In this document: piece after piece, positions 24,446 to 64,000 of the stretch | How positions within the stretch are numbered: position 1 is the stretch's first letter | Layout: every line of letters starts with the position of its first letter | Source of the DNA: Methylobacterium sp. | Lineage (GTDB): Bacteria; Pseudomonadota; Alphaproteobacteria; Rhizobiales; Beijerinckiaceae | DNA: 64,000 nucleotides | NCBI GenBank assembly: GCA_020253445.1 | Contig: JADCBP010000005.1 | Span: 496,001 to 560,000, forward strand | Direction of reading: 5' to 3' | Translations under genes and position numbers: made by a program | The notes under the pieces: generated by a model | What the model saw: the letters and a program-made list of their open reading frames with translations, nothing else | What the model was told of the DNA's origin: nothing | Databases searched by the model: none

Positions 24446-24477
24446 CATCCCGGCCCGGCTGACCATGCTTGCTGCGC

Positions 24478-24570
24478 ATTCCGAGGGGTGTCGCAACCGG
24501 CGGCTGAGATCAGGGGAATGGACCTGAGCACTCTTTGAACCTGATCCGGGTCATGCCGGCGAAGGGACAG
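24478..24570 (+). ncRNA. TPP riboswitch (THI element) upstream of thiMED
   Basis: GAGGGGTGTCGC...CGGCTGAGATCAGGGG...ACTCTTTGAACCTGATCCGGGTCATGCCGGCGAAGGGA matches the THI-box core. Confidence 0.93.
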
Positions 24571-24574
24571 GGCC

Positions 24575-25321
24575 GTGTTTCGCGACAAGATTTCCTCCAC
24601 TGCTTCTTGCCTGCCGGTGCCGATGACGCCGTTTCCGCTTGATGAGGCGCGGCGCCTGGCCCGCGCCGTGGCCATGCGCCGGCCTCGCATTCATGTCCTC
24701 ACCAATCCGGTGGCGCAGGCGCTGAGCGCGCATGCGCTCGTGGCGCTCGGGGCCGAGCCATCGATGTCCGCGCATCCGCGTGACATCCTCGCGCTCGCGC
24801 GCGGCGCGGATGCCCTCGTCGTCAATCTCGGCATGCTCGAACCCGCGCGCGAGGCGGCGATCGAGGCGCTTCTCGCGGAGGGCGCGGCTTTGGCGACGCC
24901 CGTCGTGCTCGACCCCGTGATGGCCGATCGCGTGCCCTTCCGTCGTGAACTGGCGGAACGGTTTTCGCCTTTCCCGCGTCTCCTCGTGAAGGGGAATGCG
25001 GCAGAGATGGCCGCCTTGCGCGGCGCGTTTCCGGCCGGGACGGTTCTCGTCACCACCGGCGGGACCGATCATGTCGAGGGCAGCGCCGCCTGCGAGATCA
25101 CGGGCGGCCACCCGCTCATGGCGCGGTTCTCGGGCTCGGGTTGCCTTGCGGGCGCGGTGATCGCGGCTTTCGCGAGCGTCGAGCCTGAGCCGGCGCGCGC
25201 CGCGGCCGCCGCGCTGACAGCCTTGCGACACGCCGCAGCCGAGGCCGGCGCGGCCGCGCAGGGCCCCGGCACCTTCGTGCCGCTTCTTCTCGATTCCCTC
25301 GCCCGTTTTTCGGAAGGATGA
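24575..25321 (+). CDS. thiM: Hydroxyethylthiazole kinase (start GTG 24575 or ATG 24623)
   Basis: HVLTNPVAQALSAHALVALGAEPSMSAHPRD...LVKGNAAEMAALRG...VTTGGTDHVEG...MARFSGSGCLAGAVIAAF. Confidence 0.92.
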   Translation: MFRDKISSTASCLPVPMTPFPLDEARRLARAVAMRRPRIHVLTNPVAQALSAHALVALGAEPSMSAHPRDILALARGADALVVNLGMLEPAREAAIEALLAEGAALATPVVLDPVMADRVPFRRELAERFSPFPRLLVKGNAAEMAALRGAFPAGTVLVTTGGTDHVEGSAACEITGGHPLMARFSGSGCLAGAVIAAFASVEPEPARAAAAALTALRHAAAEAGAAAQGPGTFVPLLLDSLARFSEG

Positions 25322-25322
25322 C

Positions 25323-25967
25323 ATGACGTTGGACATCACCCTCTATGGCATCGTCGACCCGCAGATCGCGAGGGGCCGCAGCCTCGCGCGGCTCGCGCGT
25401 ACGGCGGCCGATGGCGGCACGACCATCATCCAGTATCGCGCGAAGGAGGCGGTTACCCGCGCGATGATTGCCGAAGCGCGGGGCATCGTCGCAGCGCTTT
25501 CGGGCACGAATGTGCCGCTGCTCATCAATGATCGCGTGGATGTCGCCCTCGCCAGCGGCGCGCAGGGCGTGCATCTCGGGCGCGAGGACATGCACCCGGC
25601 GGATGCCCGCGCGCTTCTCGGCCCGCAAGCGATCATCGGCGCGACGCTGAAGAACCGCGACGATCTGCTCGCCCTGCGCGGCCAGCCGATCGATTACGCC
25701 TGCATTGGTGGTGTGTTTGCGACAAGCCACAAGGACAATCCCGATCCGCCCTTGGGAATTCATGGCTTCCGGGCCCTGCGCGCCGAGGCGCGGGAATTGC
25801 TCGGCCATATCCCGGTCGGTGCCATCGCGGGTATCACGGTCGAGAATGCGGGCTCGCTCATGGAAGCGGGCGCGGATGGCGTCGCGGTGATCGGCGCGCT
25901 TTTCGCGGGCGAGGATCCGTGCAGGGCGGCGAAAGCCTTCTCGCCCGTTCTGAGGAGGGCGGCATGA
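25323..25967 (+). CDS. thiE: Thiamine phosphate synthase
   Basis: [21 protein letters not shown]...[22 protein letters not shown]...[27 protein letters not shown]. Confidence 0.94.
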
Positions 25968-26767
25968 TCCCCGTCGCGCTCACGATTGCGGGCTCGGATT
26001 CCGGCGGGGGAGCGGGCATTCAGGCGGATCTGAAAACCTTCTCGGCCTTGGGCGTGTTCGGCACCAGCGCGCTCACGGCACTCACGGCGCAGAATACGCT
26101 GGGCGTTTCCGCCGTGCACGCTCCGCCGCCGGATTTCGTGGCGGCGCAGATCGCGGCCGTGCTCACGGATTTCCGTGTCGGCGCGGCGAAGACCGGCATG
26201 CTCCATTCCGCCGAGATCATCACGGCGGTGGCGGAGGCCCTGGCCGAGGCGCCCGATCTCCCGCTCGTCGTCGATCCCGTGATGATCGCGACCTCCGGGG
26301 ATCCCCTCATCCGGCCAGAGGCGGTCATGGTGATGGTGAAAAAGCTCTTCCCCCGCGCCGCGCTCGTCACGCCCAATCTCGCGGAGGCCGCCGCGCTCAC
26401 CCATGCGCCAATCGCGCAGGATCTCGACGCCATGCAGCGGCAGGGGGAGGCGATCCGCGCCATGGGCGCGCGCTCGGTGCTGATGAAGGGCGGTCATGCG
26501 GAAGGCGCCGAGGCCATCGATCTGCTGGTGAGCGACGAGGGGTCACGCGTCTTCTCCGCGCCACGCATTGAGACGCGTCATACCCACGGCACGGGCTGCA
26601 CGCTCTCGGCGGCGATCGCGGCCGGCCTCGCCAGGGGCCAGCCGATGGAAGAGGCGATCGGAGAGGCCAAGGCCTATCTCACCGCGGCTCTGGTTGCGGG
26701 CCGCGAGCTCGGCCTTGGGCACGGCAACGGGCCGGTCCATCATTTTCATGCCCTCCGGGCGCGCTGA
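25964..26767 (+). CDS. thiD: Hydroxymethylpyrimidine/phosphomethylpyrimidine kinase
   Basis: [48 protein letters not shown]...[21 protein letters not shown]. Confidence 0.96.
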
Positions 26768-26782: not shown

Positions 26783-27820
26783 ATGGCCGTGACCCGCCGC
26801 CTCGCGCTTGCCGGAGCCGCGAGCCTTGCGCCCTCCGCGATTGCGCGCGCCGATGCGCCACGCCGCTGGCGCATGGTCACGAGCTGGGGGAAGAATCTCG
26901 TCGGGCCGGGTGTTACGGCCGCCCGGCTCGCGAGGCGCATCACCGCCATGAGCGGCGGTGCCCTGGAGGTGCAGCTCTTCGCGGCCGGCGAGATCGTGCC
27001 GGCGCTGAACGTGCTCGATGCCGTCTCCACCGGCACGGTGGAGATGGGCCACACCGCCGCCTTGTTCTGGCAGGGAAAGATGCCGGCGGCCTCGCTCTTC
27101 ACCACGGTGCCCTTCGGCCTTTCGCCCGTGGCGCATGCCGCTTGGATCGATGCGGAAGGGCAGGGGCTCTGGGATGAACTTTACGGTCAATTCAACGTGA
27201 AGCCCTTCCTTGCCGGGAATACCGGGCCTTCAAGCGCGGGCTGGTTCCGCAAGCCCGTACAGATGCTCGCCGATATTGCCGGTCTGCGCATCCGCGCGAG
27301 CGGCATTGGCGGCGAACTCTATCGTCGTTTGGGCGCGACGGCGGTGACGATCTCGCCCGGCGAGACCTATGCCGCGCTCGAACGCGGCACGATCGATGCG
27401 GCGGAATTCTTGGCCCCCGCGAATGATCTCGCCCTTGGCCTCAACCGCATCGCGCCACATCTCGTTTTCCCCGGTTTCAACAAGCCGAATGGCGCGAGCG
27501 AATTGCTGATCGCGCGCCCGCTCTGGGAAGGCCTGCCGGAACATCTCAAGGCCATCATCGAAGCGGCTGCCCGCATGGAGCACGATATCGGCCTCGCGGA
27601 GGCGCATCGCCTCAATGCCGAGGCGCTCCGCACGCTGATCGAGGGCGGCACGCAGGTGCATCGCCTGCCGGAGGAGGTGCTCGCGAAGGGCGCGATTCTG
27701 GCCGAGGAAATCCTCTCCGGCCTCGCCGCAAAGGATGCGCTCACCGCACGGATCGTCGCGAGCTATCGGGGCGCGCGCCATTCCTCGGCGCGGGCCTGGG
27801 AGGCGCTGGCGCGGAGCTGA
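26783..27820 (+). CDS. TRAP transporter substrate-binding protein (DctP-like), orphan
   Basis: MAVTRRLALAGAASLAPSAIARADAPRRWRMVTSWGKNLVGPGVTAARLARRITAMSGGALEVQLFAAGEIVPALNVLDAVSTGTVEMGHTAALFW...WFRKPVQMLADIAGLRIRASGIGGELYRRLGATAVTISPGETYAALERGTIDAAEF; starts 15 bp after thiD. Confidence 0.88.
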   Translation: MAVTRRLALAGAASLAPSAIARADAPRRWRMVTSWGKNLVGPGVTAARLARRITAMSGGALEVQLFAAGEIVPALNVLDAVSTGTVEMGHTAALFWQGKMPAASLFTTVPFGLSPVAHAAWIDAEGQGLWDELYGQFNVKPFLAGNTGPSSAGWFRKPVQMLADIAGLRIRASGIGGELYRRLGATAVTISPGETYAALERGTIDAAEFLAPANDLALGLNRIAPHLVFPGFNKPNGASELLIARPLWEGLPEHLKAIIEAAARMEHDIGLAEAHRLNAEALRTLIEGGTQVHRLPEEVLAKGAILAEEILSGLAAKDALTARIVASYRGARHSSARAWEALARS

Positions 27821-41265: not shown

Positions 41266-42054
41266 CTAGCCCGCGATGAGCTTCTCGCGCTTCAGGATCA
41301 GCGAGGCCGTGACGACGAGCGCCGCGACACCGGCGATGAGCAAGGTCGAGATCGCGTTGATCTCCGGGCTCACGCCAAGGCGCACGGCGGAATAGATGCG
41401 CATGGGCAGCGTCGTGGCACCCGGCCCGGTCGCGAAGCTCGCGATCACGAGATCATCGAGCGAGAGCGTGAAGGCCAGGAGCCACCCGGCGATGATTGCC
41501 GGCAGCGCGAGCGGCAGGGTGATGGTCATGGTCACGCGCCACGGGCTCGCGCCGAGATCCTGCGCGGCTTCCTCGAGGCTGCGATCGAGCGTCGCAAGCC
41601 GCGCCTGCACGATCATGGTCACGAAGCAGAGCGTCAGCGTCGCATGCGCCAGCGTCACCGTCGCGAAGCCGCGCTCCACATTCAGCGCCACGAAGAGCAG
41701 CAGCAGCGAGAGGCCGGTGATCACCTCGGGCATGACCATCGGCGCGGCGATCAGCCCGCCGAAGAGCAGTTTCGCGCGGCCCGGTCGCGCCCGCTCCAGC
41801 GCCAGAGCGGCCAGGGTGCCAAGCACGGTCGCGATGGTCGCCGAAGCAATGGCCATGGCCAGAGAAAGCAAGGCTGCGTCCTTCAGCGCCTGATTTTGCC
41901 ACAGGCTCGCATACCATTGCGTGGAAAAACCGCCCCAGACCGTCACCAGTCGCGAGGCGTTGAAGGAATAGAGAATGAGAATGCCGATCGGCACATAGAG
42001 GAACAGCAGCCCGGCAATCAGCGCGAGCGCATGGACGAGACGGAAGCCTTTCAT
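41266..42054 (-). CDS. Spermidine/putrescine-type ABC transporter permease (PotI/PotC-like)
   Basis: MKGFRLVHALALIAGLLFLYVPIGILILYSFNASRLVTVWGGFSTQWYASLWQ...EEAAQDLGASPWRVTMTITLPLALPAIIAGWLLAFTLSLDDLVIASF. Confidence 0.93.
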   Translation of the reverse strand: MKGFRLVHALALIAGLLFLYVPIGILILYSFNASRLVTVWGGFSTQWYASLWQNQALKDAALLSLAMAIASATIATVLGTLAALALERARPGRAKLLFGGLIAAPMVMPEVITGLSLLLLFVALNVERGFATVTLAHATLTLCFVTMIVQARLATLDRSLEEAAQDLGASPWRVTMTITLPLALPAIIAGWLLAFTLSLDDLVIASFATGPGATTLPMRIYSAVRLGVSPEINAISTLLIAGVAALVVTASLILKREKLIAG

Positions 42055-42941
42055 CGGCTCGTCTCCTTCCGTTGGGTGATACTGCGGAGCATCATCATCG
42101 GCAGGATGATGAAGGCAAGAAGGCTCACGGCCACGGCGGAAGCCAGAGGCCAATCGCGGTTCGAGAAGAACTCGGTCCAGAGCACGCGGCCGATCATCAG
42201 GGTCTCCGAGCCACCAAGCAGGTCGGGGATCACGAATTCGCCGATTCCGGGAACGAAGACGAGGAAGCAACCGGCAAGAATGCCGGGCTTTGCCAGCGGC
42301 ACGGTGATGGTGAAAAAGCGCGTGAGCGGCTTCGCCCCGAGATCCGCCGCGGCCTCGATCAGGCTGCGATCCATCTTTTCGAGAACCGCGTAGATCGGCA
42401 GCACCATGAAGGGCAGGTAGGAATAGACCATGCCGATCAGCACGGCGGTTTCGGTATTGAGCAGACGCAGCGGCTCGCCGGTGAGGCCAATGCCCATCAG
42501 CACGCGGTCCAGCACGCCTTCGGGCCGGAGGATCGCCATCCACGCATAGACGCGGATGAGAAACGAGGTCCAGAACGGCAGGATGATCAGCAGAACCAGC
42601 AGGTTCTGCCAGCGTTTCGGGGCGCGTGTGATGGCATAGGCGAGGGGGAAGCCGATCAGAAGCGCGATGAGCGTTGCCATCCCTGCGATGCGGAGCGCGG
42701 TGAGAAACGCATCAAGATAAAGGCTGTCCTCCCAGAGCGTGCCGAACGCCTCGAAATCGAGCTGCGCCAGGAACTCGCCGATCTGCCCGAAGCCCGGCCA
42801 ATGCGGTGCATAGGGCGGCACCGCGCGCGCAGCATCCGACAGCGATATCCGCAGCACCATCAGGAAGGGCAGCACGAAGAACGCCCCGAGCCAAAGGATC
42901 GGCGCGAGCGCGGCAAGCCATGCGCGCTGGTCGCCCTTCAC
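42051..42941 (-). CDS. Spermidine/putrescine-type ABC transporter permease (PotH/PotB-like), GTG start
   Basis: (M)KGDQRAWLAALAPILWLGAFFVLPFLMVLRISLSDA...EAAADLGAKPLTRFFTITVPLAKPGILAGCFLVFVPGIGEFVIPDLLGG; GTGA overlap with the ATPase stop. Confidence 0.92.
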   Translation of the reverse strand: MKGDQRAWLAALAPILWLGAFFVLPFLMVLRISLSDAARAVPPYAPHWPGFGQIGEFLAQLDFEAFGTLWEDSLYLDAFLTALRIAGMATLIALLIGFPLAYAITRAPKRWQNLLVLLIILPFWTSFLIRVYAWMAILRPEGVLDRVLMGIGLTGEPLRLLNTETAVLIGMVYSYLPFMVLPIYAVLEKMDRSLIEAAADLGAKPLTRFFTITVPLAKPGILAGCFLVFVPGIGEFVIPDLLGGSETLMIGRVLWTEFFSNRDWPLASAVAVSLLAFIILPMMMLRSITQRKETSR

Positions 42942-44095
42942 GTCGCGCCATCCAGCAGGATCGGCGCCTCGATATCCCACGAGAGCCAGACGGGATCATC
43001 CCAGCCGATCGGGCGCTCCGAGCGGCGTGTGCGATTGGTGACGCCCACGCGGACAATCGCGCCATCGGCAAGTTTCACCTGCACCATGGTCATGTCGCCG
43101 AGATAGCCGATATCCCAGACGATGCCCTCGACGCGGTTCACGCCTTCATGCGGCGGGGTGAAGCCGAGGGTGATCTTCTCGGGGCGCAGGCCGACATCCA
43201 CGCGGGTGCCGGGCGCGGGTTTCTCGCCCTCGTCATCGAGTTCGATGGTGCCGATGGTGGGGTGCAGCAGCGTCACCACCTCGCCCTCGACCTTCGTGAC
43301 GGTCGCCTCGAAGATGGTGATGTCGCCCACGAATTCGGCCACCGCGCGCGTCTGTGGCGCTTCATAGATCTCCGCCGGTGTGCCGACCTGCGCGAGGCGA
43401 CCCTTTCCCATCACGCCGATGCGATGGGCCATGGTCATGGCCTCGTCCTGGTCATGCGTGACCATCAGGAAGGCGAGGCCGAGCTTCTCCTGCAGGGCCA
43501 CGAGTTCGAATTGCGTCTCCTCGCGCAGCTTGCGGTCCAGTGCGCCGAGAGGTTCGTCGAGCAGCAGCACGCGCGGCCGCTTGGCGATGGCGCGCGCGAG
43601 CGCCACGCGCTGCTTCTGCCCGCCGGAGAGTTGATCCGGTCGGCGCCTGCCGAAATCCGCGAGGCGCACCAGGCTCAGCACTTCCTCCACCCGCGCCGCG
43701 ATCTCTGCCCTGGGCAGCCCCTCCTGCTTCAGGCCATAGGCGATGTTCTCCGCCACATTCATGTGCGGAAACAGCGCGTAGGATTGGAACATGAGGTTCG
43801 TGGGCCGCTGATGGGCGGGCACGCCGAGCACGCTTCGGCCATCCAGCAGGATATCGCCCGAGGTCGGCTCCTCGAAGCCCGCGAGCATGCGCATCAACGT
43901 TGTCTTCCCGCAGCCGGAGGGACCCAGAAGGGCGAAGAACTCGCGCGGGTAGAGATCGAGATCCACCCCCGCCACGGCTTCCACCGCGCCGAAGGATTTC
44001 CGCACATTGCAAAACGAGACGAGCGGTTTCGCGCCCGGATCAAGCCACGGCGCGAAACTCGATCGCACCGGGCCTGCGGCGCGCTCAATGCTCAT
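42938..44095 (-). CDS. Spermidine/putrescine-type ABC transporter ATP-binding protein (PotG/PotA-like)
   Basis: LLGPSGCGKTTLMRMLAGFEEPTSGDILLDGRSV...LSGGQKQRVALARAIAKRPRVLLLDEPLGALD. Confidence 0.94.
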   Translation of the reverse strand: MSIERAAGPVRSSFAPWLDPGAKPLVSFCNVRKSFGAVEAVAGVDLDLYPREFFALLGPSGCGKTTLMRMLAGFEEPTSGDILLDGRSVLGVPAHQRPTNLMFQSYALFPHMNVAENIAYGLKQEGLPRAEIAARVEEVLSLVRLADFGRRRPDQLSGGQKQRVALARAIAKRPRVLLLDEPLGALDRKLREETQFELVALQEKLGLAFLMVTHDQDEAMTMAHRIGVMGKGRLAQVGTPAEIYEAPQTRAVAEFVGDITIFEATVTKVEGEVVTLLHPTIGTIELDDEGEKPAPGTRVDVGLRPEKITLGFTPPHEGVNRVEGIVWDIGYLGDMTMVQVKLADGAIVRVGVTNRTRRSERPIGWDDPVWLSWDIEAPILLDGAT

Positions 44096-44126
44096 GATGC
44101 GGGAAACCGACCGGTGAGGAAGCGCA

Positions 44127-45227
44127 TCATCGGCCCGTCTTCACGCGCGTCCAGAGGCGGTTCACCACCCGCTGGGTTTTCTCGTCAAACGGCGTGATGG
44201 TGTAGAGCCGCGCCAGCGTCTCCGCACTCGGGTAGATGCCGGGGTCCTTGAGGATCTCCGGCGGGATATGCTTCTGCGCCGAGAGGTTCGGCGAGGCATA
44301 TTGGATGAAGACCGAGTTGCTGGCCGAGACTTCCGGGCGGTTCAGGTAGTCGATCAGCTTGTAGGCTGCTTCCTTGTTCGCGGCATCCGCCGGGATCACG
44401 AAGCTGTCGAACCACATCAGCGCGCCCTCTCTCGGAATGGAATAGCCGATCTCGACGCCATTCCTGGCTTCCGCCGCGCGCTTCTTTGCCTGAAGCACGT
44501 CACCCGAATAGCCCACCGCGAGGCAGATATCGCCATTGGCGAGCGCGGTGATGTATTCGGAGGAATGGAATTTCTGGATATGCGGCTTGATCTTCGCCAG
44601 AAGGTCCGCGGCCTTGCGCAGGTCACCTTCGGCCTTTGAATCCGGGTCGAGGCCGAGATAACGGAGCGCCGCCGGGAACATTTCCTCCGTCGCATCGAGC
44701 ACGTGCACGCCGCAGGAAGCGAGTTTCGAGACCTTGGCGGGATCGAACAGGATCGACCAGCTATCGACCTGCGCTTGCGGGCCGAGCTTCTCGCGCACCT
44801 TCTTCAGATTGTAACCGAGGCCCGTGGTGCCCCACATGTAATTGACCGCGAACCTGTTGCCGGGATCATATCTGGCGAGGCGGCCCACGATATCCGGCCA
44901 GAGATGCGAGAGGTTCGGGAGCCTCGATTTGTCGAGTTCGGTGTAGAGCTTCAGCGGGATGTGCCGCGGCAGGAACGAGGCGGTGACCACCACGAGGTCA
45001 TAACCGCTCTTGCCGGTGACAAGCTTCGTCTCCACCGTCTCCATCTGGTCGAAGGTATCGTAGATCACCTTGATGCCGGTTTCGCGCGTGAAGGCGTCGA
45101 GAACGGCGGGGTTGATGTAATCCGACCAGTTATAGACGCGCACCTCGCCCTGCGCCTTCGCGGCCAGGGCTGACAGCATGAAGGCCAGACCGGCCACCAG
45201 CCCGCGTCCAATCGAGAACCCGTTCAT
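44127..45227 (-). CDS. Spermidine/putrescine-type ABC transporter substrate-binding protein (PotF/PotD-like)
   Basis: Signal peptide; EVRVYNWSDYINPAVLDAFTRETGIKVIYDTFDQMETVETKLVTGKSGYDLVVVTASFLPRHI. Confidence 0.94.
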   Translation of the reverse strand: MNGFSIGRGLVAGLAFMLSALAAKAQGEVRVYNWSDYINPAVLDAFTRETGIKVIYDTFDQMETVETKLVTGKSGYDLVVVTASFLPRHIPLKLYTELDKSRLPNLSHLWPDIVGRLARYDPGNRFAVNYMWGTTGLGYNLKKVREKLGPQAQVDSWSILFDPAKVSKLASCGVHVLDATEEMFPAALRYLGLDPDSKAEGDLRKAADLLAKIKPHIQKFHSSEYITALANGDICLAVGYSGDVLQAKKRAAEARNGVEIGYSIPREGALMWFDSFVIPADAANKEAAYKLIDYLNRPEVSASNSVFIQYASPNLSAQKHIPPEILKDPGIYPSAETLARLYTITPFDEKTQRVVNRLWTRVKTGR

Positions 45228-45402
45228 CGCGCCGCACCTCCGAGGGAAAGACGTGGCGAGAGCGCCACCGTCCGGGAAGAATAGCGCCTCGCGCCCGGCT
45301 GAAAAGGGCGTTCGGGTTATGCCAGAGGGAAAAATGCCGGGATCGCGATGCGAGACGCGCCGGAATTGACGGATCGGTTGCGCGCCACTATCTCTTTTCG
45401 GA

Positions 45403-45524
45403 GCCTAGGGGAGCCCTGGCCAGCCGCATCACGCGGCCTTCGGGGCTGAGAAGACCGCGAGATCCGGAAAACCGGAGGCGCGGCGACCCTTCGAACCTGA
45501 TCCGGATCATGCCGGCGAAGGGAT
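45403..45524 (+). ncRNA. TPP riboswitch (THI element) upstream of an orphan ABC binding protein
   Basis: CTAGGGGAGCCC...CGGGGCTGAGAAGACC...CGACCCTTCGAACCTGATCCGGATCATGCCGGCGAAGGGA; CUGAGA and GAACCUGAUCCGGAUCAUGCCGGCGAAGGG cores intact. Confidence 0.9.
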
Positions 45525-45570
45525 GGCGCGCATGGCCCGTCAGGTCGTCGCACTCTCAAGCCCTCAATCC

Positions 45571-45595
45571 GGATCTCTGACCCGAACGGAGATCC
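45571..45595 (+). promoter_or_regulatory. Shine-Dalgarno-sequestering hairpin GGATCTC...GAGATCC
   Basis: 7-bp stem 45571-45577 / 45589-45595 whose 3' arm contains the SD (GGAG 45588-45591) of the ORF starting at 45599. Confidence 0.65.
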
Positions 45596-45598
45596 GCC

Positions 45599-46624
45599 AT
45601 GATGTTTCTGAACAATCTCACGCGCCGTGCTTTCCCGCCGCTGATCGCGGTCCTGCTGGCCCTGCCGGCCTTCGCGCAAGCGCCGAAGACGCAGTTGCAG
45701 GTCTATACGACCCTGCTTCCGGAGAGCCTCGCCGAGTTCAAGAGCGCATTCGAGGCCGAGAACCCGAATATCGAGATCGTCTGGCGCCGCGAATCCACGG
45801 GCACGCTGACCGCGCGCATCATCGCGGAAGCCGAGCAGGCGCGCGGCGATGTCATCTGGGGTCTCGCCGTCACCTCGATGCTCGATTTCAAGCGGCGCGG
45901 CATTCTTGAGCCCTATGCGCCGAAGAACCTCGCGGCCTTGCGGCCGAATTTCCGCGACAGCGAGGCCGTGCCGCACTGGATCGGCATGGAAGCCTGGGTG
46001 GCGGCGATCTGCTTCAACACCATCGAGGCCGAGAAGCAGAACCTTCCGCGTCCGCAGAGCTGGTTCGACCTGCTGAACCCTGTTTACAAGGGCAAGATCG
46101 TCTTCTCCGATCCTGCGGCCTCGGGCACGGGCTATTTCCATGTCTCGGCCTTCCTGCAGCTCTTCGGCGAGGCGAAGGGGTGGGAATTCATGGAGGGGCT
46201 GCACAGGAACATCGCGGTCTACGAGCCCTCGGGCACGCGGCCCTGCCGCCATGCCGCGACGGGCGAATACCCGATCGGCATCTCCTATGAGCTCGCGGGC
46301 ATGATGGAGAAGGACAAGGGCGCCCCCATCGACATCCTGGTGATGAAGGAGGGCGGCGGCTGGGACATGGATACCGCCGCGATCCTCAAGGGCACGAAGA
46401 ACCTCGAAGCCGCCAAGGCGCTGATGGATTTTGCCGCGAGCCGGAAGGCCAACGAACTCTACGCCAGGTGGGTGCCGCTCACCGCCATCGAGGGCGTCGC
46501 CCCGCCGCCCAGGAACTATCCGGCGGGGGTCGCGGCTTCGATGATCCGAAACGATTTCGCCTGGGCGATGGAGAACCGCGATCGCATTCTTGGCGAGTGG
46601 CAGAAGCGCTTCGCAAAGCGCTGA
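45599..46624 (+). CDS. ABC transporter substrate-binding protein, PhnS2/SBP_bac_6-like, TPP-riboswitch controlled
   Basis: KTQLQVYTTLLPESLAEFKSAFEAENPNIEIVWRRESTGTLTARIIAEAEQARGDVIWGLAVTSM...YKGKIVFSDPAASGTGYFHVSAFLQLFGEAKGWEFMEGLHRNIAVYEPSGTRPCRHAATGEYPIGISYE. Confidence 0.88.
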   Translation: MMFLNNLTRRAFPPLIAVLLALPAFAQAPKTQLQVYTTLLPESLAEFKSAFEAENPNIEIVWRRESTGTLTARIIAEAEQARGDVIWGLAVTSMLDFKRRGILEPYAPKNLAALRPNFRDSEAVPHWIGMEAWVAAICFNTIEAEKQNLPRPQSWFDLLNPVYKGKIVFSDPAASGTGYFHVSAFLQLFGEAKGWEFMEGLHRNIAVYEPSGTRPCRHAATGEYPIGISYELAGMMEKDKGAPIDILVMKEGGGWDMDTAAILKGTKNLEAAKALMDFAASRKANELYARWVPLTAIEGVAPPPRNYPAGVAASMIRNDFAWAMENRDRILGEWQKRFAKR

Positions 46625-46627
46625 GGC

Positions 46628-47395
46628 TCATTCCTTCTCGGGCAGATCACGCAGGAAACCGAGCCCCAGGAAATAGATGCCGCCGGCTAGCAACACCGCT
46701 TTGGTGGCGAGGCCGGGGGCAAGCCGATCCACGATGATCGACCACACCGCCGCCACGCTCCATGTCGCGAGCGCGGCCATGGTCATGGGGCGCCAGCGCT
46801 TCACGCGCACGGGGTGCACGAACACCACGGGCAGGAACATCATCGCCGTGAGAATGATCACGATGACCAGCGCCAGCCAGGCCGGCGGCAGAAACACCAC
46901 GATATAGAAAACCACCACGTTCCACACGGCCGGAAAGCCGAGAAACCACCAATCATGCGTCTTCATCTTGGTGTCGGCGAAATAGAGCGCCGAGCCGATG
47001 GTGATGATCAGGCCCATCGCGAGGCCATAGGGCTGCGGCATGATTTCCGGGCGCAGCAGGATCGCCGCCGGCACGAAGACGTAAGTGATGAAATCCACCA
47101 CGAGATCGAGCACCGCGCCATCATAGCGCGAGGCGGTCTCGATCACGTTCAGTCGCCGCGCCATCGGGCCATCTGCGGCATCGACGATCAGCGCCACGGC
47201 CAGCCAGCCGAAACATGCCACGATATGCCCGGAAATCGCGGCCTCCAGCGCGAGAAAACCAAGCGCCGCTCCGAGTGCCGTGAAAACGTGCACGCCATAG
47301 GCCATGACATGGACCGGACCTTTCTTCCCGGCCTTGTCCCGCTCTCTTGTCGCCACGCCCCCAACTCCGTCACTGAAAATCTCGTATAATCGCAT
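46628..47395 (-). CDS. pcs: Phosphatidylcholine synthase
   Basis: MAYGVHVFTALGAALGFLALEAAISGHIVACFGWLAVALIVDAADGPMARRLNVIETASRYDGAVLDLVVDFITYVFVPA; CDP-alcohol-phosphatidyltransferase-like motif. Confidence 0.93.
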   Translation of the reverse strand: MRLYEIFSDGVGGVATRERDKAGKKGPVHVMAYGVHVFTALGAALGFLALEAAISGHIVACFGWLAVALIVDAADGPMARRLNVIETASRYDGAVLDLVVDFITYVFVPAAILLRPEIMPQPYGLAMGLIITIGSALYFADTKMKTHDWWFLGFPAVWNVVVFYIVVFLPPAWLALVIVIILTAMMFLPVVFVHPVRVKRWRPMTMAALATWSVAAVWSIIVDRLAPGLATKAVLLAGGIYFLGLGFLRDLPEKE

Positions 47396-55440: not shown

Positions 55441-55543
55441 AGCGGCCTCCGATCTGATCGAATCAGATCCTGCGCTCACTCTTCTTGTTTTCGCATCCGC
55501 TTTTTTACGCCAACCGGTATCCACTTGGCGGGCGGATGCTCTA
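55438..55543. repeat. Intergenic palindromic repeat between convergent hutD and ABC ATPase genes
   Basis: TAGAGCGGCCTCCGATCTGATCGAATCAGATCCTGCGCTCACTCTTCTTGTTTTCGCATCCGCTTTTTTACGCCAACCGGTATCCACTTGGCGGGCGGATGCTCTA; nearly identical to 10737-10843. Confidence 0.8.
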
Positions 55544-56323
55544 ATGCGCCGCCGCGAGCACGGCCTCGCTGCGGATTTCCTCGGTCAGCCGGGCCTTGAG
55601 CGCGGAGAATTCCGGCGCGGTCTTCAGCGTGTAATGCCGGGGATGCGGCAGGGTGATCGGCAGATCGGCCTTGATGCGTCCGGGACGCGCGCTCATCACC
55701 AGGCAGCGCGTTGCGAGGAAGATCGCCTCCTCGATGTCATGGGTCACGAAGATCACGGTTTTCTGCTCGCGCTCCCAGATGCCGAGCAGCAATTCCTGCA
55801 TCAGCGCGCGGGTCTGGTTGTCGAGCGCGCCGAAGGGTTCGTCGAGCAGCAAAACGCCGGGATCATTGGCGAGCGCGCGGGCAATCGCCGTGCGCTGCTG
55901 CATGCCGCCGGAAAGCTGCTTCGGATAATGGTTCTCGAAGCCCTTGAGGCCCACTTTGTCGATGTAGCTCGCGACGATCGCGCGGCTCTCGCGCTCGGGC
56001 ATGCCCTTCTCGTTGAGGCCGAAGGCGATGTTCTGCGACACCGTGAGCCACGGAAACAGCGTGTAGCTCTGGAAGACCATCCCCCGATCCGCACCCGGCC
56101 CCTCGACCTTGCGGCCATCGAGCAGGACCTGCCCGGAAGTGGGTCGATCAAGCCCCGCGACCATGCGCAACAGCGTGGATTTCCCGCAGCCCGAGGGGCC
56201 GAGAAGCGTCACGAATTCATTGTTGCCGATCACGAGATCGGTCGGCTGCAGCGCGGTCACCGGCTTGCCCCCGCGCACGCCCGGGAAAATGCGCCCCAGC
56301 CCCTCGACTACCAGCTTGCTCAC
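55541..56323 (-). CDS. NitT/TauT-family ABC transporter ATP-binding protein (GTG start)
   Basis: (M)SKLVVEGLGRIFPGVRGGKPVTALQPTDLVIGNNEFVTLLGPSGCGKSTLLRMVAGLDRPTSG...LSGGMQQRTAIARALANDPGVLLLDEPFGALD. Confidence 0.93.
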   Translation of the reverse strand: MSKLVVEGLGRIFPGVRGGKPVTALQPTDLVIGNNEFVTLLGPSGCGKSTLLRMVAGLDRPTSGQVLLDGRKVEGPGADRGMVFQSYTLFPWLTVSQNIAFGLNEKGMPERESRAIVASYIDKVGLKGFENHYPKQLSGGMQQRTAIARALANDPGVLLLDEPFGALDNQTRALMQELLLGIWEREQKTVIFVTHDIEEAIFLATRCLVMSARPGRIKADLPITLPHPRHYTLKTAPEFSALKARLTEEIRSEAVLAAAH

Positions 56324-56451
56324 GCCAGCCTCTCTTCTTGCACTGGCCTGCTCATGCAAGCCTCTCTTCTTGCACTGGCTTGCTCATGCAAGCCTCTCTT
56401 CTTGCGCTGGCTTGCTCATGCAAGCCTCTCTTCTTGCACTGGCTTGCTCAT
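56320..56451 (-). repeat. Four-copy 32-bp tandem repeat forming four ATGA-coupled 11-codon mini-ORFs (MSKPVQEERLA-type)
   Basis: Minus strand: ATGAGCAAGCCAGTGCAAGAAGAGAGGCTTGC x4 (minor variants); each unit reads ATG...GCATGA and the TGA overlaps the next ATG; last TGA overlaps the ATPase GTG at 56323, first ATG overlaps the permease TGA at 56450-56448. Confidence 0.92.
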
Positions 56452-57221
56452 GCAAGCCTCCAGGGAAACAGCTTCGCGTTCAGGAACTTGAACAGGAAGT
56501 CGGAAATGAGCCCGATGATGCCGATGATGATGATGCCGAAGATCATCTGGCCCGTCGCGAGCAGGGCCTGGCTGTCGATGATCATGTGGCCGATGCCGCT
56601 GGAGGAACCGATCAGTTCCGCCACGATCACATAGGTCCAGGCCCAGCCGAGCACGAGGCGGAGGATTTCCGCGATTTCCGGCGCATTCATCGGGATCATC
56701 ACCCGGCCCACGATGCCGGCATCCTTGGCACCGAGCGTATAGGCCGCCTCCACGAGGTCGCGGCGGGTGTTGCCCACCACCACGGCGACCATCAGGATGA
56801 TCTGGAACACCGAGCCAATGAAGATCACCAGCAACTTCTGCGTCTCCCCGATGCCCGCCCAGAGGATCAGCAGCGGCACGAAGGCCGAGGCCGGCAGGTA
56901 GCGCGCGAAGGAGACGAAGGGTTCGAGAAACGCCTCCACCGGCTTGTAGGCCCCCATCAGGATGCCGAGTGGCACCGCGACGATCGCCGCGAGCACGAAG
57001 CCGCCGAAAACACGCCAGATGGTGATGGCGATATCCTCCGCGAAACCGAATTTCGTCAGCAGCAGCCAGCCATCCTTCACCATGGTGATGGGATCGGCGA
57101 GGAACGTCTTCGACACATATCCGCCAAGCGTGGCGACGGCCCAGGCCGCGAAGAACAGCACGAAGAAGGCGAGACCGAGCAGGATCTTGCGTCCTTCGGA
57201 GATGGGTTCAAGCGGCCGCAT
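56448..57221 (-). CDS. NitT/TauT-family ABC transporter permease
   Basis: 257 aa MRPLEPISEGRKILLGLAFFVLFFAAWAVATLGGYVSKTFLADPITMVKDGWLLL...FVPLLILWAGIGETQKLLVIFIGSVFQIILMVAVVVGNTRRDLVEAAYTLGAKDAGIVGRVMIP. Confidence 0.93.
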   Translation of the reverse strand: MRPLEPISEGRKILLGLAFFVLFFAAWAVATLGGYVSKTFLADPITMVKDGWLLLTKFGFAEDIAITIWRVFGGFVLAAIVAVPLGILMGAYKPVEAFLEPFVSFARYLPASAFVPLLILWAGIGETQKLLVIFIGSVFQIILMVAVVVGNTRRDLVEAAYTLGAKDAGIVGRVMIPMNAPEIAEILRLVLGWAWTYVIVAELIGSSSGIGHMIIDSQALLATGQMIFGIIIIGIIGLISDFLFKFLNAKLFPWRLA

Positions 57222-57723
57222 GGCGCTTCTCTTCCTTCACGCGCCGGGCAAGGGCCTGCCACGGCGCGATGTCCCAGTGGGATGTGGCGAGCCCCGAAGT
57301 CGAGGGCAGCACATGGGTTTCGATGCCGCAGAACCGCTCATCAAGCAGGCCGAAGCGCAGGTTCCGGCGCCCAAGGGCCAGCTCAGCAGCGTTCTTGCTG
57401 GTGAAGGCGAGGCATTGCGGCCGATGGCGTTCGAGGCTTGCCCTGAGCCGGTCGATGTGGAGTTCAGCCGCCGAAAGCGTGGAATCCTGTCCCGCCGAGG
57501 TTTTCGCCAGATCGGTCAGCCCGATTCCGAGGGGCAGCAGAAGCCGGTATTCATCGGCGGCGAAGAGGCGGGGCGTGAGCCCGACCTCGTGCAGGGTGCG
57601 CCAGAAGCGGTTGCCCGGCTTCGCGTAATAGGCCTGCCGGGCGGCGGAGGCGATGCCGGGGCGGGTGCCGCAGAAGACGATGCGAAGGCCATCGGCAAGA
57701 AGGTCTTCGAGAACGTCTGCCAT
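57208..57723 (-). CDS. mug: Mug-type G/U mismatch-specific uracil-DNA glycosylase
   Basis: LEDLLADGLRIVFCGTRPGIASAARQAYYAKPGNRFWRTLHEVGLTPR...GIGLTDLAKTSAGQDSTLS...HVLPSTSGLATSHWDIAPWQALA; GINPG-like and NPS-like motifs. Confidence 0.88.
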   Translation of the reverse strand: MADVLEDLLADGLRIVFCGTRPGIASAARQAYYAKPGNRFWRTLHEVGLTPRLFAADEYRLLLPLGIGLTDLAKTSAGQDSTLSAAELHIDRLRASLERHRPQCLAFTSKNAAELALGRRNLRFGLLDERFCGIETHVLPSTSGLATSHWDIAPWQALARRVKEEKRHAAA

Positions 57724-57744
57724 GGCGCGCCCCGCTTCCGAACC

Positions 57745-58686
57745 TTACTGGATGAAGCGCGTATCCGCGAGCTTCGTGATATCCGGAACCGACTTGATGA
57801 TGCCGAGTTCCAGCAGCAGTTCGGCCGCTTCCTTCGAGAATTCCGCATGCGGGCCGGCGAAGAACGCCTTGTTCGCGGCCCTATCCTGCCAGCGCAGATA
57901 CTTCGCGCTATCCGCGAATTGCTGCGCGGTCTGGCGCACATCGGCACCCATGATGGTGAAGGCCTTTTCCTGCTCCTTCGCGATCATCTCGAGGGCCTCG
58001 AAATAGCTGTCCACGAGGGCTCTCACGGCCTTCTCGTTCTCCGCGATGAATTTCGGCGTGCAGCCGAAGGTGTCCATCACCATCGGGTAATCGAGCGTGG
58101 TCGCGATGATCTTTCCGGCCTGTGGCGCGTTCCGCACCGCCGAGAGGAAGGGCTCATAGGTCATGGCGACATCATTCTGCCCGGCGATGAAGGCCTGCGC
58201 GGCTGGTCCGGGCTCCATGTTGACGACCGTGACGTCCTTCACCGAAAGCCCGTTCTTCTTCAGGAACCAGGCGAGAGTGAAATAGGGCGCGGTGCCGGGC
58301 GCGGAAGCCGCGACTGTCTTTCCCTTGATCTCCTTGATCGAATTGATGTTGTTGCGCACGGCCATGCCATCCGCGCCATAGCTCTTGTCAAGCTGGAACA
58401 GTTGTGTCGTCGCCACGCCATTGGCGTTCCAGACAATCCAGGTCTCCACGGTGGTTGCCGCGCACTGGATGTCGCCCGAGGCAATGGCCAGATGACGCGA
58501 GGCCTGCGGGATCTTCTTGATGGTCACGTCGAGGCCGTTCCTGGCGAAGATGCCGGCCTCCTTCGCGAGCGTGAGCGGAGCGAACCCGGTCCAGCCGGAG
58601 ATGCCGATCGAAACCTTGGTCTGGGCCGAAGCCGGAGCCGCGAGCCCGGCGGCGAGGAGGAGGGCGGCAAGGCGAAGCTTGTTCAT
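57745..58686 (-). CDS. NitT/TauT-family ABC transporter substrate-binding protein (NMT1-like)
   Basis: MNKLRLAALLLAAGLAAPASAQTKVSIGISGWTGFAPLTLAKEAGIFARNGLDVTIKKIPQASRHLAIASGDIQCAATTVETWIVWNANG. Confidence 0.92.
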   Translation of the reverse strand: MNKLRLAALLLAAGLAAPASAQTKVSIGISGWTGFAPLTLAKEAGIFARNGLDVTIKKIPQASRHLAIASGDIQCAATTVETWIVWNANGVATTQLFQLDKSYGADGMAVRNNINSIKEIKGKTVAASAPGTAPYFTLAWFLKKNGLSVKDVTVVNMEPGPAAQAFIAGQNDVAMTYEPFLSAVRNAPQAGKIIATTLDYPMVMDTFGCTPKFIAENEKAVRALVDSYFEALEMIAKEQEKAFTIMGADVRQTAQQFADSAKYLRWQDRAANKAFFAGPHAEFSKEAAELLLELGIIKSVPDITKLADTRFIQ

Positions 58687-58745
58687 GACGGTCTCCCTGA
58701 TGCTGATCTGCATTCTGGCGCGAAATGAAGCATTCCGGTTTTTTA

Positions 58746-63775: not shown

Positions 63776-64000
63776 ATGAAACAGGGTTGGCTGGCCGGCG
63801 TGGCGATGGGCCTCGTTCTGGCCATGGGATGGAGCAGCGCGGCAGACGCGCAGGGTCGCACCCGTGTGACGGTTTATACGGCGTTGGAGAACGACCAGCT
63901 CCAGCCGTTCAAGCAGGCGATCGAGGCCGATGTGCCGGATGTGGAAATTTCCTGGGTGCGTGACTCCACCGGCGTGATCACCTCGCGCTTCCTCGCCGAG
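63776..64000 (+). CDS. 2-aminoethylphosphonate ABC transporter substrate-binding protein (partial, runs off right edge)
   Basis: Manual translation: MKQGWLAGVAMGLVLAMGWSSAADAQGRTRVTVYTALENDQLQPFKQAIEADVPDVEISWVRDSTGVITSRFLAE; PhnS2-like, follows phnWAY. Confidence 0.85.
   Translation, partial: MKQGWLAGVAMGLVLAMGWSSAADAQGRTRVTVYTALENDQLQPFKQAIEADVPDVEISWVRDSTGVITSRFLAE

Follow-up and report, generated by a model that had tools for sequence, protein, structure and literature searches.

SBP*, an orphan periplasmic binding protein encoded behind a TPP riboswitch in the window (the whole 64,000-nucleotide stretch of DNA analysed), probably binds a phosphorylated thiamine vitamer, with the thiazole phosphate HET-P and thiamine monophosphate (TMP) as the likeliest ligands; it would be made at low TPP and hand its ligand to a remote transporter, most likely PhnT2/PhnU2. 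This proposed partner is the permease-ATPase of a putative 2-aminoethylphosphonate ABC transporter, whose own binding protein, PhnS2, is the closest relative of SBP*. The first-pass annotation had proposed that SBP* may be a phosphonate-type protein that was turned to a thiamine phosphate or a precursor and borrows a remote transporter, a reading that our results largely support. We put at somewhat less than an even chance the wider view that SBP* and its relatives constitute a new family of TPP-riboswitch-induced HET-P/TMP binding proteins that retarget an aminoethylphosphonate ABC transporter, such that one permease serves two ligands and is switched by vitamin status. If this sharing is true, a riboswitch re-tasks a transporter by a change of binding protein alone. 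Riboswitch-controlled vitamin binding proteins are already known as a kind. No literature linking TPP riboswitches to the SBP* group was found in the open-access library searched, in which the group, its missing transporter, and its link with ThiG absence appear undescribed.

Gene neighborhood, riboswitch, and expression platform

SBP* (45599–46624, + strand) is a type-II periplasmic binding protein of 341 amino acids (SBP_bac_6, PhnS2-like). It scores 405.2 bits against the NCBIfam model TIGR03261 ("phnS2"), above the cut-off of 392.75, as do all the relatives tested (395–442 bits), and this family model would label it "2-aminoethylphosphonate-binding". Proteins of the SBP* clade are thus likely to be systematically misannotated, in which case aminoethylphosphonate (AEP) transport may be over-counted in metagenomes and vitamin uptake missed. 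The protein starting at 63776 (63776–64000, + strand, running past the window edge) is a true PhnS2, with 471 bits against the same model and with phnT2 and phnU2 following outside the window; it is 51% identical to SBP*, which bears out the resemblance that had been noted by eye. ThiB, the thiamine/TMP binding protein of ThiBPQ, is likewise a periplasmic binding protein and can be under TPP riboswitch control. However, SBP* reaches only 58.8 bits against the ThiB model TIGR01254 (cut-off 93.4), and neither thiP nor thiQ lies beside it.

The next gene, identified earlier as a convergent pcs, is pcs-like (46628–47356, − strand), its best matches all being phosphatidylcholine synthases, though below their cut-offs. 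Elsewhere in the genus, SBP* is followed by pcs, except that the downstream genes of G136 and G149 are of trp/acc/fol type (named by eye) and face SBP*; outside the genus, CoA-transferases follow SBP* at locus L166 and an oligopeptide-type binding protein at L180. None of the neighborhoods examined has a dedicated permease or ATPase gene, or phnT2 or phnU2, directly beside SBP*, and a search among distant relatives likewise turned up no operon in which SBP* comes with a permease. The earlier description of SBP* as having no permease or ATPase beside it needs amending in that a divergent, polyamine-type ABC operon (potF/G/H-like, 42051–45227, − strand) starts ~170 bp upstream. This operon has its own binding protein and is apart from SBP* in G093, G136, and G149, so the statement that SBP* has no transporter of its own stands.

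The TPP riboswitch aptamer (THI-box) is located at 45397–45540 (+ strand; Rfam RF00059, 55.1 bits, E 4.7e-8), and the aptamer core runs to 45523, which puts it 75 nt upstream of the SBP* ATG (45599), the distance given in the first-pass annotation. The 3.28-Mb genome contains only two RF00059 matches. The second (24474–24584, + strand) precedes thiM-thiE-thiD-dctP. It is extremely improbable that the match before SBP* is decayed or arose by chance and that the orphan is an ordinary PhnS2 paralog. The score barely exceeds the gathering score of 54.3 bits, which is explained by long insertions (19 and 18 nt) in two loops of this aptamer, but the same match occurs before 15 orthologs, with leader scores of 55–76 bits. 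When these 15 leaders are aligned, about 50 columns are invariant, and 4 of the 20 predicted aptamer pairs show changes on both sides that preserve pairing, the remainder being mostly invariant. Moreover, the aptamer is followed by a hairpin over the ribosome-binding site.

This 10-bp hairpin (45570–45596, + strand; arms 45570–45579 and 45587–45596) encloses the Shine-Dalgarno sequence GGAG (45588–45591) in its 3' arm, 7 nt 5' of the ATG. Its fold has an energy of −16.6 kcal/mol (z −3.42), and none of 200 shuffled sequences was equally stable. The leader of G093 has the same hairpin over its ribosome-binding site. The 5' arm overlaps a candidate anti-sequestor, ATCCGGATC (45567–45575, + strand), which is perfectly complementary to GATCCGGAT (45499–45507) within the aptamer, itself part of GATCCGGATC (45499–45508, + strand), the candidate 5' partner of an alternative, ON-state helix. 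This complementarity, along with the hairpin, makes for a plausible ON/OFF pair. Folded in full, the leader keeps the hairpin closed in its minimum-energy structure, so we infer the ON helix from complementarity. At low TPP, 45567–45575 would pair with the aptamer strand 45499–45507 and leave the ribosome-binding site free; with TPP bound, the aptamer would be locked, and the 45570–45596 hairpin would form over GGAG and turn translation off. SBP* would then be produced only at low cellular TPP. The motif (A/G)(A/G)TCCGG(A/G)TCTC...GGAGAT is found in 9 of the 15 ortholog leaders, including those of the distant L174–L177 (there with GGGAGAT). In L151, L166, L170, and L178, the start codon is so close behind the aptamer that control by direct occlusion is likely.

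SBP* is an orphan in every genome, and a significant, distant relative (6lkg–6lkl) mediates two-component signal transduction according to its PDB entries, which together bring to mind a periplasmic sensor or chemotaxis ligand-binder. We consider such a role very unlikely, as no sensor kinase or chemoreceptor gene was recognized in the annotated SBP* neighborhoods and repression by TPP fits uptake better.

Phylogeny and association with ThiG absence

Within the genus, SBP* was identified in seven genomes out of 17 (G000, G093, G136, G149, G153, G154, and G155; 73–100% identity), each time with a TPP riboswitch directly upstream. A scan of public prokaryote genomes yielded 46 SBP* loci (55–97% identity), which belong to the genus, to many Reyranella, and to assorted Rhodospirillales bins. 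Eight loci outside the genus (L151, L166, L170, and L174–L178) have a TPP riboswitch above the Rfam threshold before SBP*; a motif scan of the other SBP* loci revealed no convincing TPP riboswitch upstream, and the transporter-linked PhnS2 loci examined are without one.

A maximum-likelihood tree built from 75 proteins groups 45 orphan binding proteins in one clade (support 100/97), apart from that of 17 transporter-linked PhnS2 proteins (100/99). The comparison with PhnS2 that had been proposed as a check therefore places SBP* in a clade of its own and not inside that of transporter-linked PhnS2. The outer, early branches of the SBP* clade, within which some branches are weakly supported, are occupied mostly by riboswitch-bearing proteins, and TPP control of SBP* is for this reason best read as ancestral and lost in most Reyranella and in L179 and L180. 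One bin (MAG-110; contigs JAEULB01) has two SBP* copies, L174 with a riboswitch and L179, judged by motif scan only, without.

The window genome has thiM, thiE, and thiD (thiazole and pyrimidine salvage, and TMP synthase; 24575–26767, + strand); neither thiC nor thiG was found in it. True ThiG, with E values of about 1e-90 to 1e-100, is encoded by six of the 17 genus genomes, none of which has SBP*. Seven of the 11 ThiG-less genomes do; one of the four that do not, G150, is only 83% complete. In the seven riboswitch-linked genomes outside the genus numbered G160–G166, the ThiG model finds nothing beyond weak, partial matches. Among 33 SBP* genomes, 14 of the 15 riboswitch-linked ones are ThiG-less (the sole exception being G167, which carries L151), as compared with 3 of the 18 in which SBP* lacks a riboswitch, the other 15 having ThiG. 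The Fisher values for these contrasts (0.035 within the genus and 1.3e-5 for linked against unlinked SBP*) are indications only, as the tests treat genomes as independent despite shared ancestry, several genomes are draft bins, and there are perhaps two evolutionary contrasts, one within the genus and one between Reyranella and the rest. TPP control of SBP* is thus conserved in all seven genus orthologs and eight relatives, and the riboswitch-linked form tracks the absence of ThiG. The ThiG-containing Reyranella have SBP* without a riboswitch, in many cases with a pocket identical to that of riboswitch-linked SBP*, and SBP* is therefore not confined to thiazole auxotrophs.

A link of SBP* to loss of ThiC was also considered and rejected, as SBP* is found both with and without ThiC. 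This variability argues against HMP as the ligand and points to the thiazole half or to the whole vitamin. TMP alone would satisfy every riboswitch-linked genome, and HET-P would satisfy those with ThiC. The occurrence of ThiM in the genus favors uptake of unphosphorylated HET by some route; this is mildly against HET-P, the uptake of which would make ThiM redundant, since ThiM phosphorylates unphosphorylated HET.

Uptake of the thiazole HET is a known gap, and the transporter for this step is often unknown. Only ThiW and ThiU are given for HET in a study of gut bacteria, in which ThiW was present in just 64% of the HET auxotrophs analysed (PMC6593275). ThiW and ThiU would fill the same need as SBP*, namely thiazole uptake in ThiG-less cells, but are set apart from it by description, SBP* being an ABC-type periplasmic binding protein. 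SBP* is a testable candidate for filling the HET-uptake gap in environmental Alphaproteobacteria without ThiG.

The only TPP-controlled transport genes in the window genome are SBP* and a TRAP-type binding protein. The latter, of the DctP family (26783–27820, + strand), ends the TPP-controlled thiM-thiE-thiD operon and follows the thi genes in most members of the genus. No TRAP membrane subunits were recognized beside it, so the TPP regulon may include a second orphan binding protein.

The ligand-binding site

By sequence profile and by predicted fold, the organophosphate binders AfuA, Vibrio VcA0625, and P5PA are the solved proteins closest to SBP* (model mean pLDDT 80.9; Foldseek E 6e-24, TM up to 0.85). 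The best PDB match by both sequence and fold is the hexose/heptose-phosphate binding protein AfuA (PDB 4R72–4R75), which contacts phosphate through Ser37, Ser148, Gly149, and Thr150 (PMC4546632). The pyridoxal-5'-phosphate binding protein P5PA (PDB 6WCE; TM 0.79/0.85 to the model) does so through Thr37, Ser147, Gly148, Thr149, and Ser183 (PMC8427247). These contacts correspond to T67, S175, G176, T177, and S211 of SBP*, and no SBP* or PhnS2 sequence examined departs from them, so that SBP* combines an AfuA/P5PA-type fold with the phosphate contacts of these proteins. The neighboring S66 is serine in all SBP* proteins except three of Reyranella type, which have alanine.

The residues that contact the remainder of the ligand in these proteins are absent from SBP* in the alignments. 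The sugar-binding H205 and D206 of AfuA are replaced by L232 and A233, and the ring contacts Y103 and H203 of P5PA by E131 and L232. SBP* also departs from PhnS2, in which D231 and R233 are invariant and position 232 is methionine (either methionine or threonine in Reyranella-type PhnS2): D231-(M/T)232-R233-P249-E258 of PhnS2 is E-L-A-M-D in SBP*. W133 and R/K217 are likewise specific to the SBP* clade. The pocket of SBP* is therefore altered from that of PhnS2, as a repurposed protein would have it, with the phosphate site kept and the specificity site changed. Given this pattern, the ligand of SBP* likely carries a phosphate and is unlikely to be AEP. Both HET-P and TMP are compatible with the phosphate site and with the link to ThiG.

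A role for SBP* in binding 2-aminoethylphosphonate or a close analogue, with TPP control being incidental or serving another purpose, would account for the TIGR03261 scores of SBP* and its relatives and for the presence of the PhnU2 permease in all SBP* genomes checked. We regard this as unlikely. In the same genomes, a PhnS2 bearing the D231-(M/T)232-R233 signature is already encoded next to PhnT2U2; SBP* belongs to a clade of its own, which has lost that signature; and the riboswitch persists across deep divergence. A phosphorylated thiamine vitamer remains the preferred ligand.

The Reyranella-type subclade L161–L173 has a different pocket, mostly with Y127, Q214, A230, I232, S233, and E256, and may bind another ligand.

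Candidate transporters

Binding proteins usually dock with the permeases of their nearest relatives. PhnU2 (at least 60% identity, 60–100%) is encoded in 24 of 24 SBP* genomes checked (in G163 split over two contigs), elsewhere than beside SBP*, with PhnS2 and PhnT2 next to it in nearly all, which supports the proposal of a remote transporter. Within the genus, SBP* is found in 7 of 9 carriers of the main PhnS2 clade and in none of the 8 others (Fisher 0.0023, again an indication only), and about 20 of 149 genomes of the family have a PhnS2-like protein (about 40% identity or more). The presence of PhnU2 in all SBP* genomes checked and the link to the main PhnS2 clade make borrowing of PhnT2U2 by SBP* our leading idea. 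We hold it at about even odds, because the PhnU2 counts among Rhodospirillales cover SBP* genomes only and PhnU2 may simply be common in this order.

P5PA offers an experimental precedent, as a vitamin-phosphate binder that is kin to another organophosphate binder and depends on its relative's ATPase, namely AfuC from AfuABC (PMC8427247). AfuA and P5PA both carried their ligand when purified. Unlike SBP*, P5PA has its own permease, P5PB, and no riboswitch is described for it.

SBP* might instead bind a thiamine-related ligand and use a transporter other than PhnT2U2, such as the divergent pot operon or a ThiP-like system elsewhere, which we judge rather unlikely, though less so than AEP binding. 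The pot-type operon lies nearby on the opposite strand in the closest relatives as well as in the window genome, and the latter has at least two further fused permeases of the same superfamily, 25–28% identical to PhnU2. However, the pot operon was rejected as the partner of SBP* because its adjacency is not conserved. No thiamine-type binding protein in the genus exceeds its cut-off, and both the usual docking partner and the constant presence of PhnU2 point to PhnT2U2.

Two other systems were considered and set aside. An NMT1-type ABC system (55541–58713) was examined as a possible ThiXYZ; its binding protein matches SsuA-type models best, below their cut-offs, and no TPP riboswitch is near. 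In G166, a possible physical link between PhnS2T2U2 and a TPP-controlled, ThiXYZ-like operon is probably coincidental, as the intervening genes encode subunits of cytochrome bd and a lactate racemase.

TPP riboswitches were also seen before other genes. In G160 and G166, they precede branched-chain-type ABC operons (L248 and L250; Peripla_BP_6 with BPD_transp_2), possibly another type of thiamine-vitamer transporter. In G162 and G163, which are without ThiC and ThiG and have riboswitch-linked SBP*, they precede YkoF-EDC-type genes (L251 and L253), and in G169 one of 58.2 bits precedes a luciferase-like monooxygenase (L254). The window also contains a glycine riboswitch (1937–2030, + strand; 54.4 bits) upstream of a gene that starts at 2086 or 2173.
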